Made by a program: the position numbers and the translations under genes. A stretch of DNA of 64,000 nt, from assembly GCF_008039615.1 (NCBI RefSeq), contig NZ_VDUZ01000040.1, forward strand, positions 1 to 64,000. Direction: 5' to 3'. The notes below the pieces were generated by a model, which was not told where the DNA came from, made no database searches, and saw only the letters and a program-made list of their open reading frames with translations. Of this stretch, positions 57,839 to 61,830 are shown in pieces. Source of the DNA: Vineibacter terrae (GTDB taxonomy: Bacteria > Pseudomonadota > Alphaproteobacteria > Reyranellales > Reyranellaceae). Position 1 is the first letter of the stretch. Every line of letters starts with the position of its first letter.

Positions 57839-59455
57839 TCAGGCCGCGGCGCCGGTGTCGAGCGGCAGCGTCACCTCGAACGCTGCGCCGCGGTCGCTCG
57901 GCAGCAGGCGGATCGTGCCGCCGAAGGCCGCCAGCCGGCTGCGCACGATAGGCAGGCCCAGGCCGGTGCCGCCGCCATCGCGCGCGGTGGTGAAGAAGCG
58001 GTCGAAGACGCGGGCCTGGTTGCCGGCCGAGATGCCGGGGCCGTCATCGGCCACGGTCAGCACGATCACCGGCCCCTGGGTGCGCCATGCGACGTGCACC
58101 GTCGCGTCCGGCCCGGCGTGCTGGCGCACGTTGTCGAGCAGGTTCGTGAGCATGGCCACGATGCTGTCGGCATCGGCCTGCGCCACCAGGCCTGCCGCCG
58201 GCGCCTCGACGGCGATCTGCAGGCCCTTGCTGCGATAGCGCTCGACCAGCGGCGGAATGATCGTGTCCAGCGCCGCGCGCTCCTCGCCGGTGGGGCGCAG
58301 CGCATCGGCGCGCGCCAGGTCGAGCAGGCGCCGCGTCAGGCGCTCCAGCCGCTCGATGTCGCCGGCGAGGTTGTCGAGGAAGCGGTCGCGATCCTCGGGC
58401 GCCATGGCGGCGACGTCGTCGCGCAGCAGCTCGACCGTGCCGCGCATGGCGGCCAGCGGCGTCTTGAACTCGTGGCCGATCTCGGCGGCGAAATCGCGGA
58501 TGTAGTCGGCGCGGTGCTCCAGGGTCTGCGCCATGGTGGCCAGCGAGGCCGACAGCTCGGCCACCTCGCGGGTGTAGCGGTGCGGCAGCGGCTGCACGGC
58601 GCCGCGCTCGCCGGCCGCCACGCGGCGCGCCTGCTCGACGGCGCCGCGCACCGGCCGGCTCACCGTGAGCGCCGTGAAGGTGGCCAGCGCGCCGCCGACC
58701 AGCAGCAGCAGCGCGCCCAGCGCCACCAGATGATAGCGCTTGCCGTAGAGCGCCTGGATCAGGGTGCGCGGCGTGCGCCGCAGCAGCACGGCGCCGAGGA
58801 TGCGATCGCCGTCGATCACGGGGATCGCGACATGCACGCGCACGCCCCCGACACGGCTGAACGGCCAGGCGGGCAGGCCGGCATAGGACTCGGCCGGGCG
58901 CTCGCGCAGCACCGAGGTCGGCGCGCCGCGCAGGGCCTCGGCCAGCTCCTGCAGCGCCGCCAGCGACCCGCCTTCGTCGTCCTCGGTGCTGGCGACCACG
59001 ATGCCGCGCGCATCGACGATCTGCATGCCGGCCAGGGTGTGGCGCTGCGCCGCCAGCAGCACGTCGCGCAGCGGCGGCCCGACGCGCAGCGCGACGGGCT
59101 CCGGCGGCACGCCCGGCGGCACGCCGTCGGGTGCCGGCGGCAGGATCGGATCGTCGGCCAGGTCGAGGCTGGCGGGAATCGGCTGCCAGCGGTCCTCGCT
59201 CGGCGCGCGCTGCGCCTGCGGCTGCTGCGACAGCGCCTCAGGCGGCGCGGCGGCCAGCCATGCGGCGCGGAACTGGGCAGCGATCAAGGCGGCCTGGCCG
59301 ATCAGCTCCGACTCGGTCTGCCGCACCAGGGCGCTTTCGTAGACACGCAGGAACCAGATGCCGGCCAGCGGCAGCGCCAGCAGCGCCACATTCACCGCCA
59401 GCAGCATCGTCAGCAGGCGCGGCCGCCACCGCCGGTCGGTCATGGCCTTCGTCAT
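57839..59455 (-). CDS. creC: CreC-like sensor histidine kinase
   Basis: The 538-residue kinase has a first helix (LLTMLLAVNVALLALPLAGI), a periplasmic sensor region to about residue 240, a second helix (HLVALGALLLLVGGALATF), HAMP, and a kinase core: the H-box IRDFAAEIGHEFKTPLAAMRG with the phospho-accepting His, NLLDNVRQHAG (N), VADDGPGISAGNQARVFDRF (G1) and GGGTGLGLPIVRSRLAAFGG (G2). The neighbouring response regulator and creD point to the CreBC/BlrAB system. The start used is ATG 59455; ATG 59443 is an alternative. It follows its regulator by 104 bp. Confidence 0.85.
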   Translation of the reverse strand: MTKAMTDRRWRPRLLTMLLAVNVALLALPLAGIWFLRVYESALVRQTESELIGQAALIAAQFRAAWLAAAPPEALSQQPQAQRAPSEDRWQPIPASLDLADDPILPPAPDGVPPGVPPEPVALRVGPPLRDVLLAAQRHTLAGMQIVDARGIVVASTEDDEGGSLAALQELAEALRGAPTSVLRERPAESYAGLPAWPFSRVGGVRVHVAIPVIDGDRILGAVLLRRTPRTLIQALYGKRYHLVALGALLLLVGGALATFTALTVSRPVRGAVEQARRVAAGERGAVQPLPHRYTREVAELSASLATMAQTLEHRADYIRDFAAEIGHEFKTPLAAMRGTVELLRDDVAAMAPEDRDRFLDNLAGDIERLERLTRRLLDLARADALRPTGEERAALDTIIPPLVERYRSKGLQIAVEAPAAGLVAQADADSIVAMLTNLLDNVRQHAGPDATVHVAWRTQGPVIVLTVADDGPGISAGNQARVFDRFFTTARDGGGTGLGLPIVRSRLAAFGGTIRLLPSDRGAAFEVTLPLDTGAAA

Positions 59456-59462
59456 AGGGCAG

Positions 59463-59537
59463 GGCCGCACCGCTCCAGCGGCGCTCTTTTCTGCGGCAGA
59501 AAATCAAAGAGGCGCCGGTGGAGCGGCGCGGCCCGAC
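59463..59537. repeat. GGGCCGCACCGCTCC intergenic palindrome
   Basis: GGGCCGCACCGCTCCAGCGG (left) is answered by CCGGTGGAGCGGCGCGGCCC (right), with an inner TTTTCTGCGGCAGAAAA hairpin. It lies between the regulator and kinase genes on the minus strand and may modulate their relative expression. Confidence 0.8.
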
Positions 59538-59559: not shown

Positions 59560-60288
59560 TCAGGGCGCTGGCGTCGCGGCGGCGAGCTTGTAACCGACAC
59601 CGTGCACGGTCTCGATCGGCGCGCCGCCGGCAGCGGCCAGCTTGGCGCGGATGCGCCGCACATGGCTGTCGATGGTGCGGTCGCTCACGAAGCGGCGATC
59701 GTCGTAGGCGCGCTCCATCAGGTTGTCGCGCGTGAAGACCTTGCCCGGCCGCTCGGCCAGCGTGCGCAGCATCGCGAACTCGGTTGCCGTCAGCTCGATC
59801 GCGGCGCCGTCCCAGGTCGCGACATGGGCGTCGAGGTCGAGCGCCAGGAACCCGCGGCGCAGCACGCGATGCGGCGGCAGCTCGTCGGCGGCAGAGAGCG
59901 TGGCCGCCGGCGTGCCGATCACCGCGCCGTCGCGCCGGCGCAGCACCGCCTTGACCCGCGCCACCAGCTCGCGCGGGCTGAACGGCTTGGTGACGTAGTC
60001 ATCGCCGCCCAGCTCCAGCCCCACGACACGGTCGATCTCGTCGTCCTTGGATGACAGGAAGATGATCGGTACCGCCGAGGTGGCGCGCAGACGGCGGCAG
60101 ACCTCGGTGCCGTCCATCTCCGGCATCAGGATGTCGAGGACCAGCAGGTCGGGCTTCTCCTGCTCGGCTGCCTGCAGCGCCGCCGCGCCGTCGCCGGCCT
60201 CGGCCACAGCGTAGCCTTCCTTGCGCAGCGCGAAGGCCACCACGTCGCGGATATGTCGGTCGTCGTCGACCACCAGCACCTTGGGCAT
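59560..60288 (-). CDS. creB: CreB-like OmpR/PhoB-family response regulator
   Basis: The 242-residue regulator has a receiver domain with KVLVVDDDRHIRDVVAFALR, DLLVLDILMPEMDGTEVCRR (phospho-Asp), VPIIFLSSKDDE (Ser) and GADY-like GGDDYVTKPFSPRELVAR (Lys). An OmpR-type winged helix follows with LTATEFAMLRTLAERPGKVF, DRTIDSHVRRIRAKLAAAGG. CreB homologues in gammaproteobacteria bind TTCAC-N6-TTCAC and activate creD. The ATG at 60288 starts the gene, divergent from creD, with TGCAC-N6-TGCAC in the shared gap. Confidence 0.88.
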   Translation of the reverse strand: MPKVLVVDDDRHIRDVVAFALRKEGYAVAEAGDGAAALQAAEQEKPDLLVLDILMPEMDGTEVCRRLRATSAVPIIFLSSKDDEIDRVVGLELGGDDYVTKPFSPRELVARVKAVLRRRDGAVIGTPAATLSAADELPPHRVLRRGFLALDLDAHVATWDGAAIELTATEFAMLRTLAERPGKVFTRDNLMERAYDDRRFVSDRTIDSHVRRIRAKLAAAGGAPIETVHGVGYKLAAATPAP

Positions 60289-60338
60289 GGCCGCATTGTC
60301 CCCGCAGTTGGCGGCGAAAGGAAGGCCGCGCCGGGCGA

Positions 60339-60354
60339 TGCACCTTTTTTGCAC
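60339..60354. promoter_or_regulatory. candidate CreB box, TGCAC-N6-TGCAC
   Basis: TGCACCTTTTTTGCAC is a 5-bp direct repeat with a 6-bp spacer, the exact geometry of the CreB/BlrA tag TTCAC-N6-TTCAC, differing only by G for T in the second base of both halves. It lies 50 bp before the creB start and 120 bp before creD in the divergent gap, where an autoregulator would bind. Confidence 0.6.
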
Positions 60355-60474
60355 GACATTTCTGGCCGGATGCCACCGGCCGGACGGCGGGGCCGCACGC
60401 GGCCTGCGCATCTTCGGGGCTCGTCCTTCCGTCGGCGGCCCGTCGCGGAAGATCATGCCTGACCGGAGTTCCAG

Positions 60475-61830
60475 ATGAGCGACACGTCCGTGCCACCGCC
60501 AGCCGGCGTCTGGGGCGCGCCGCCTTCCGGGCCCGCGCCGGCCCGTCGGCTGCCGCGGGCGTTGTTCGGGCGCCTGCCGCTGAAGGCGGCCGGGATGGCG
60601 CTGCTGGCGCTGGTCTACGCCCTGCCGCTGGCGCTGATCGCCGACCTCGTCGGCGACCGCTCGCGGCTGCTGGAGCGCACGCGCGAGGAGATCACCAGCT
60701 CGTGGGGCGGCATGCAGACCCTGGTCGGGCCGCTGCTGCTGATCCCGCACGATTCGGCGCGCGGCAAGGACGAGGCGGTGCTGCTGCCCGACCAGCTCGA
60801 CATCGAGGCGGCGCTGGCGCCGCAGGTGCGCTACCGCGGCATGTTCGAGGCCGTGGTCTACACGCTGGACGCCACCATGCGTGGCCGCTTCCGCCTGGCG
60901 CCGGGCGGTGCCGGGACGCCCACGGGCTTGCGCTGGGAACGGGTGAAGCTGCGGCTGAGCGCCGGCGACCTGCGCGGCATCCGGCTCGATGCCGTGACGA
61001 TCGACGGCCGGCCGGTCGCATTCGAACCGTCGGCGCAGGGCGAGAACGCGATCGACGCCGATATCGGCGCCATCGATCCGGCGCGCCTGGCCGAGGGCGT
61101 GCCGTTCGAGATCCGCCTGCGGCTCAACGGCAGCGAGCGCATCGGCTTCGTGCCCACCGGCACGCAGACCGACATCAAGCTCGCCGCCCCGTGGTCCGAC
61201 CCGGGATTCTATGGCCGCTTCCGGCCGGTGGCGCAGCGTATCGGCGAAGGCCAGTTCGACGCGCACTGGCAGGTGTCGATCCTCAGCCGCGGCTTCGGCG
61301 CCATCGCCACCTCGGCCGACGACTCGCGCGACAAGCTGCTGCAGCGCCTCGGGGAAGCGGCCTTCGGCGTGCAGCTGGTGCAGCCGGTGACGCCCTATCG
61401 CGGCGTCGACCGCATGCTGAAGTACGGCCTGCTGATCGTGGGCTGCACCTTCGCGCTCTACCTCGCGTTCGAGATCGCCGGCCGCATCATCATCCATCCG
61501 ATCCAGTACGCGCTCTCGGGCGCGGCGATGGCGCTGTTCCCGCTGCTGCTGCTGGCGGTGGGCGAGCATCTCGGCTTCACGCCGGCCTATGCCGCAGCCG
61601 CCGTCGTGGTGGTGATCCAGACCGCGCTCTACACCTGGCACGCCACCTTGCGGCCGGTGCTCGCGGCCTTGTTCGGCAGCGCGATCGCGGCCCTCTTCGC
61701 CTATCTCTACCTGCTGCTGCAGGCCGAAAGCTGGTCGCTGCTGGGCGGCAGCCTGGCCCTGTTCGCGATCCTCTCGGGCCTGATGTACGCCACGCGCAAC
61801 ATCGGACGGCGCGAGAGAGCGGTGCAATGA
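60475..61830 (+). CDS. creD: CreD inner-membrane protein
   Basis: The 451-residue protein has the CreD layout: a first helix near residue 40 (LKAAGMALLALVYALPLALI), a large extracytoplasmic domain from about 70 to 310 (TSSWGGMQTLVGPLLLIPHD, FEIRLRLNGSERIGFVPTG, DKLLQRLGEAAFGVQLVQPV) and four to six C-terminal helices with IGCTFALYL-like and HPIQYALSGAAMALFPLLLL segments. CreD affects envelope integrity and, with CreBC, resistance to colicins and beta-lactams. GGAG sits 6 bp before ATG 60475. It is divergent from creBC instead of downstream as in E. coli. Confidence 0.92.
   Translation: MSDTSVPPPAGVWGAPPSGPAPARRLPRALFGRLPLKAAGMALLALVYALPLALIADLVGDRSRLLERTREEITSSWGGMQTLVGPLLLIPHDSARGKDEAVLLPDQLDIEAALAPQVRYRGMFEAVVYTLDATMRGRFRLAPGGAGTPTGLRWERVKLRLSAGDLRGIRLDAVTIDGRPVAFEPSAQGENAIDADIGAIDPARLAEGVPFEIRLRLNGSERIGFVPTGTQTDIKLAAPWSDPGFYGRFRPVAQRIGEGQFDAHWQVSILSRGFGAIATSADDSRDKLLQRLGEAAFGVQLVQPVTPYRGVDRMLKYGLLIVGCTFALYLAFEIAGRIIIHPIQYALSGAAMALFPLLLLAVGEHLGFTPAYAAAAVVVVIQTALYTWHATLRPVLAALFGSAIAALFAYLYLLLQAESWSLLGGSLALFAILSGLMYATRNIGRRERAVQ

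Follow-up and report, generated by a model that had tools for sequence, protein, structure and literature searches.

Does the short direct repeat between the divergent creB and creD genes of Vineibacter terrae serve as an operator for the response regulator CreB, and how might its deviant half-sites be read? The cre/blr tag, TTCACN6TTCAC, is described upstream of creD in Escherichia coli, Aeromonas and Pseudomonas aeruginosa (PMC4689548, available excerpts). In the window, the 64,000-nucleotide stretch of V. terrae DNA analysed here, TGCACCTTTTTTGCAC (TGCAC-CTTTTT-TGCAC) occupies positions 60339–60354 of the + strand, within the 186-bp gap between the creB start codon (60286–60288, - strand) and the creD start codon (60475–60477, + strand). 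A preliminary description had read this pair as a variant CreB box with co-evolved specificity. The pair is present as claimed and agrees with TTCAC-N6-TTCAC in spacing and in four of five bases of each half; the exact tag sequence does not occur, as base 2 is G in both halves. The coordinates given for it were, however, too short: the conserved element reaches about 60376 and has four slots, not two. We consider this array a putative CreB operator of a divergent creBC–creD locus in a Reyranellaceae alphaproteobacterium, with the half-site G matched to an arginine of CreB equivalent to Arg201 of PhoB, at a probability of about 0.83 from sequence comparison.

The repeat and its gene neighbours

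We compared 18 Reyranellaceae loci holding creB: four in the genus of the window (g1), three in a sister genus (g3) and 11 in g4; the contig of L024 has only the creD start. Among named relatives, the closest are records of Reyranella sp. CPCC 100927 and of Reyranellaceae or unplaced alphaproteobacteria. The features of the locus are as follows.

60339..60343, + strand: half-site 1, TGCAC, from sequence; TGCAC in 17/18 Reyranellaceae loci, TGCAT in L012
60350..60354, + strand: half-site 2, TGCAC; TGCAC in 7/7 g1 and g3 loci; in g4 (n = 11), TCCAC 9, TCCAT 1, TGCAC 1
60361..60365, + strand: slot 3 of the 11-bp array, degenerate (TCTGG); in phase by spacing, the weakest part
60372..60376, + strand: slot 4 of the array (GCCAC); CAC in 16/17 scored Reyranellaceae sites
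59560..60288, - strand: creB-like response regulator gene, 243 aa; Response_reg and Trans_reg_C
59653..59655, - strand: codon for Arg212 of CreB, equivalent to PhoB Arg201 by helix alignment
57839..59470, - strand: creC-like sensor kinase gene, start codon uncertain; HisKA and HATPase_c
60475..61830, + strand: creD, 451 aa; Pfam CreD 2.4e-106, NCBIfam CreD 359.4 bits (cut-off 275 passed)
60295..60329, - strand: conserved stretch from the array to creB; possible creB promoter (a guess)

The array resembles the cre/blr tag, as excerpted in PMC4689548, in being a direct repeat with an 11-bp period that lies upstream of creD and points towards it, beside the genes expected of a CreB operator: a CreB-like regulator, a CreC-like kinase downstream of creB, and creD itself. 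It differs from that tag in the G at base 2 of both halves, in the divergent arrangement of the genes, and in keeping a constant distance from creB while its distance from creD varies; the tag as excerpted there has no counterpart of slots 3 and 4.

The best NCBIfam model of the regulator is CreB (233.6 bits, below the equivalog cut-off of 273, with BaeR at 202), and that of the kinase is CreC (174.9 bits, below the cut-off of 356, with BaeS at 125.9). A tree built from seven E. coli regulators and 29 of the 75 CreB rows places the Reyranellaceae rows on the CreB side of a weakly supported branch (77/90), whereas BLAST scores E. coli BaeR at 185 and the best CreB compared at 181. BaeR is also the best solved relative by sequence of the DNA-binding domain, a comparison in which CreB could not compete because the list of 45 solved sequences does not name it.

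The conserved stretch on the creB side includes a 20-bp block (60310–60329) that is invariant in 4/4 g1 loci and a -10-like word, GACAAT, spotted by eye only, on the - strand at 60295–60300; a scan of 60270–60500 for sigma-70-like promoters found none, and gives no backing to the earlier view that the pair lies in the only stretch common to both promoters. TGTCGAC and GAGTCTAGCG-like words that directly adjoin the creB start are conserved in g4 (L007, L009 and L011 are examples). These words may form the creB promoter there, which would leave almost no leader.

Conservation and extent of the array

Shuffles predict 0.16 copies of TGCAC-N6-TGCAC in the window, which has two; by arithmetic, the chance for a gap of 186-bp size is about 0.0005. 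Sites within two mismatches of TTCAC-N6-TTCAC number 25 in the window against 20 expected (about 0.06 per gap), and because such loose matches are common, resemblance to the published tag is by itself weak evidence.

Conservation among relatives is more telling. All seven g1 and g3 loci carry TGCAC-N6-TGCAC 50–51 nt from creB, and their spacers drift (CTTTTT, CCTATT, CGGAAT, CGGATT or CGGTTT). At the corresponding place, g4 loci have TGCAC-N6-TCCAC (9/11), TGCAT-N6-TCCAT (L012) or TGCAC-N6-TGCAC (L022). The first base of the pair lies 50–52 nt from the creB start in 17/18 loci and 71 nt in L022; the distance to creD ranges from 79 to 257 nt (leaving out L024 and L012, whose site the site picker missed). 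In the seven g1 and g3 gaps, 10/10 half-site columns are invariant compared with 2/6 spacer columns and 41/131 overall (hypergeometric P 3.9e-6); in 16 Reyranellaceae gaps, without L012 and L022, the counts are 9/10, 0/6 and 15/134 (P 1.6e-9). The comparison of relatives' creB–creD gaps, proposed earlier as a check, therefore found the repeat conserved, and not missing from relatives as would have spoken against it. The CreB box reading thus gains support from conservation across the family, the fixed distance to creB, and a layout (spacing, orientation, neighbouring genes) that agrees with the cre/blr tag as excerpted.

creD itself is patchy in the family, present in 19/75 genomes (g1 included) yet in 4/4 genomes of the window's genus.

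The conserved element extends beyond the pair as four slots with an 11-bp period, starting at 60339, 60350, 60361 and 60372 (slots 3 and 4 at +22 and +33). Slot 3 resembles TCCGG in g1 and g3, and g4 retains it in part, with CAC in 2/17 scored Reyranellaceae sites; slot 4 has CAC in 16/17. Gammaproteobacterial creD promoters have similar arrays, with half-sites TTCAC, TCCAC or other; in E. coli, TTCAC-CGTCAC-TTCAC is followed by the words TTCAA and CCCAC, each a little displaced. Of the 47 gammaproteobacterial sites that match in at least 7/8 bases, 19 have CAC exactly at the slot-4 offset, a count somewhat favoured by a small bonus that the site picker gave to this offset, and 37 have it there or up to 2 bp before, compared with 3/47 in each of the two preceding 3-bp ranges. 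Multi-repeat ArcA sites likewise hold between three and five direct repeats, for the most part at 11-bp intervals, and multiple repeats occur at some OmpR and PhoB promoters (PMC3798270, excerpts). The array shares with such ArcA sites the 11-bp spacing and repeats beyond one dimer's need; as excerpted there, ArcA differs in being a global regulator with varied layouts, whereas here a single local operator has a conserved layout.

A perfect pair, base 2 ignored, lies within 250 bp of creD in 14/17 Reyranellaceae loci, and two of the other three have one just beyond that distance. With the same settings, it is found in 25/57 gammaproteobacterial creD loci with creB near, in 6/39 without creB in the fetched stretch, and in 0/27 alphaproteobacterial loci without creB near; shuffles give 0.3–0.5%. 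Three of the six creB-less, pair-bearing loci (L108, L110 and L112) have a CreC-like kinase in the stretch. Allowing 7/8 bases weakens the contrast, to 14/17, 48/57, 15/39 and 8/27 in the same order, with shuffles at 4–14%.

Some creD genes without creB near (L033/L145, L191 and L195) have TGCAC-N6-TGCA-like repeats upstream; a search of the fetched stretches of L145, L191 and L195 for an OmpR-type regulator found none.

Base 2 of the half-site and residue 201 of CreB

The recognition helix of the window CreB aligns with that of PhoB without gaps (DRTVDVHIRRLRKAL against DRTIDSHVRRIRAKL), placing Arg212 at PhoB position 201; residues are numbered below as in PhoB. According to excerpts of the structural literature, Arg201 of PhoB hydrogen-bonds a guanine, while Thr194 and Val197 are in contact with thymines (PMC3973317); the base-specific contacts listed are Thr194, Val197, Arg201 and Arg219 (PMC3264566). 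Arg207 of Klebsiella pneumoniae RstA contacts G5 (PMC4117788, excerpts), and in our own reading it is the equivalent of PhoB Arg201. The pho box has the half-site TGTCA(T/C), and our array resembles it in its T-G start, its 11-bp period and the arginine at position 201, and differs in the remaining bases (TGCAC here) and in the controlled genes (PMC3264566, excerpts). Identity as a pho box was rejected, both halves being TGCAC and not of the TGTCA type. By analogy with PhoB, TGCAC fits a T-G start read by Arg201, in a register that we infer.

Base 2 other than T is also found in further creBCD loci, such as the TCCAC of Pseudomonas-like ones. Sites were picked blind to base 2 and then tabulated against the recognition helix; of 75 loci, 64 were retained, those with fewer than 7/8 matched bases being dropped (L107, L121, L135, L137, L201, L202, L012, L235, L252, L253 and L254). 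Proteins with Thr194/Thr201 go with T at base 2 in 25/26 first and 24/26 second halves. Where Asn194 is combined with Ser, Ala or Thr201 (n = 14), base 2 is never T (half 1: C 9, A 4, G 1; half 2: C 11, A 3), and the single Ser194/Ser201 protein has C in both. Arg201 goes with G in 7/7 first and 7/7 second halves, and His201 (n = 10) with G in 10/10 first halves and with C (9) or G (1) in the second. The remaining six are mixed: Ala194/Gly201 with T,A (2), Ala194/Thr201 with T,T (1), Thr194/Leu201 with T,G (1), Val194/Glu201 with T,C (1) and Val194/Ser201 with G,T (1). For Thr/Thr against T, Fisher tests that ignore the tree give P values of 8e-12 and 4e-13 when loci are counted, and of 0.003 after collapsing to families (6, 2, 1, 12).

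Among 229 alignment columns, residue 201 ranks first in normalised mutual information with the base pair, and second when similar sequences are down-weighted. Its rank (unweighted and weighted) is second and fourth without Reyranellaceae, fourth and tenth for half 1 alone, first and fifth for half 2 alone, sixth and 21st for half 1 alone without Reyranellaceae, and third and 35th with weak sites added. Residue 194 as the sole determinant of base 2 was rejected: it ranks 26th of 229 unweighted, and reaches first to sixth only without Reyranellaceae. An independent origin of Asn194 in L142 and L241 was likewise rejected, both joining Pseudomonas-like rows in the tree (95/90).

The correlation between residue 201 and base 2 is real, but alone it cannot tell contact from lineage, because columns 158 and 184–190 rank just as well and because residue 201 also tops the unweighted ranking for the control spacer bases +7 and +8, at lower values. 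Its mutual information with base 2 is 0.45–0.46 per half, compared with at most 0.32 for the nine spacer bases tested. The g4 genomes count against contact by residue 201: KdpE has His198 at the residue-201 place, a side chain considered too short to reach a base (PMC3264566, excerpts), and the His201 genomes nevertheless keep TG in half 1. Co-evolution of CreB and half-site, as proposed in the preliminary description, is supported by this correlation (Arg201 with TG, mostly Thr with TT, Ser and Asn194 with TC or TA), short of proof because few lineages underlie it.

A putative operator, its rivals and further sites

We propose that phosphorylated CreB dimers would bind head to tail on the direct repeats with their 11-bp period. 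The strong pair at 60339–60354 would take the first dimer, and the degenerate slot 3 with the conserved slot 4 (60361–60376) may take a second. As in E. coli, the repeats face creD, which makes activation of that gene the likely effect; the constant 50 nt to creB also makes it plausible that creBC is autoregulated. The half-sites would be TGCAC, not TTCAC, because this CreB has an arginine at the position of PhoB Arg201, which would read the guanine.

The rival that we take most seriously, although we think it less likely than not, keeps the CreB operator and explains the G as lineage drift at a loosely read base, unmatched to any change in CreB. Near relatives with the same helix type do differ (TGCAC-N6-TCCAC in L103, TCCAC-N6-TCCAC in L100), Thr201 proteins with G at base 2 occur (L125 and L126), TG and TC are mixed within one g4 array, and the unweighted first rank of residue 201 for spacer bases +7 and +8 suggests that it partly marks lineage. 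Drift sits poorly with the near-uniform T of Thr194/Thr201 proteins (25/26 and 24/26), with G in 14/14 half-sites of Arg201 proteins and with 14 Asn194 proteins that never go with T; nor would it lead one to expect more information on base 2 in residue 201 than on any of the nine spacer bases. A chance repeat without function is barely credible: the abundance of loose tag matches in the window (25 against 20 expected) would allow it, but half-sites are conserved beside a drifting spacer (P 3.9e-6 in seven loci and 1.6e-9 in 16).

Binding of the array by another OmpR-type regulator, or by a BaeR-like one recruited beside creD, is improbable. The slightly better BLAST score of BaeR and its place as best solved relative of the DNA-binding domain lend this some colour, but whole-protein models favour CreB over BaeR and CreC over BaeS, the tree weakly places the regulator with CreB, and the array has the layout of the CreB tag and lies at creD. 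We also doubt that the array serves creBC autoregulation only, with creD controlled elsewhere, as might be read from a fixed creB distance beside a creD distance of 79 to 257 nt: the repeat faces creD, just as it does in E. coli, and the g4 distance to that gene, 79–99 nt in the nine loci scored, is close to the approximately 77–87 nt of most gammaproteobacterial tags.

A whole-genome search for TGCAC-N6-TGCAC gave eight matches in this genome against six for a backward control, so most matches away from the creD locus are probably chance; six relatives gave 44 against 18. Three of the eight precede a likely gene start: one at creD, one at a gene for a polyprenyl diphosphate synthase and one at a type I polyketide synthase gene, whose start codon is uncertain. 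Another three (L060, L064 and L066) probably fall within coding sequence, and two are undecided (L061 and L062). Among the relatives' 44 matches, the surroundings were read for nine, and the synthase gene was sought in 34 loci. The synthase scores best with the NCBIfam octaprenyl diphosphate synthase model, at 309.9 bits where the cut-off is 412. The synthase site (G000:C37:84234-84249; L065 1501-1516) is kept in 4/4 genomes of the genus (the others being L273, L281 and L294); its spacer varies, and it is followed by G(T/C)CAC at +22 and by GACAC at +33. In the 250 bp upstream of the synthase gene, 14/14 g3 and g4 genomes have no perfect pair, the best match being 7/8 bases (L305). Because GCGACACGTC before the synthase gene also occurs in g3 without a TGCAC pair (L298 and L299), the GACAC within it may belong to another element. 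The polyketide synthase site (G000:C13:86142-86157; L063 1501-1516) is found in 2/4 genomes of the genus (L063 and L295), where it lies immediately upstream of the gene and is joined by a third TGCA word at +24. Both are candidate CreB sites. Separately, g4 loci such as L303 and L306 have a conserved inverted repeat, CGACATCGTGTCG, ahead of their polyprenyl synthase gene.

Together, these sites may outline a Reyranellaceae series in which G at base 2 is matched to Arg201, g4 takes a step to His201 with TCCAC in half 2, and the operator form also stands before the polyprenyl diphosphate synthase gene in the genus; we hold this tentatively, at somewhat less than even odds. A literature search, with most subscription papers outside its scope, returned no report of a TGCAC variant of the CreB site. 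The array supplies a candidate CreB operator for an alphaproteobacterium, and searches for CreB targets that use only TTCACN6TTCAC would miss Pseudomonas-like and Reyranellaceae sites. It also bears on the open question of how regulators and their operators can diverge in step while regulation is preserved: within one regulator family and at one conserved target gene, a single operator base is T, C/A or G, tracking a residue whose PhoB equivalent reads bases. If the Reyranellaceae series is true, it would be a small set of naturally matched changes in regulator and operator, and might link CreBC to isoprenoid or quinone supply.
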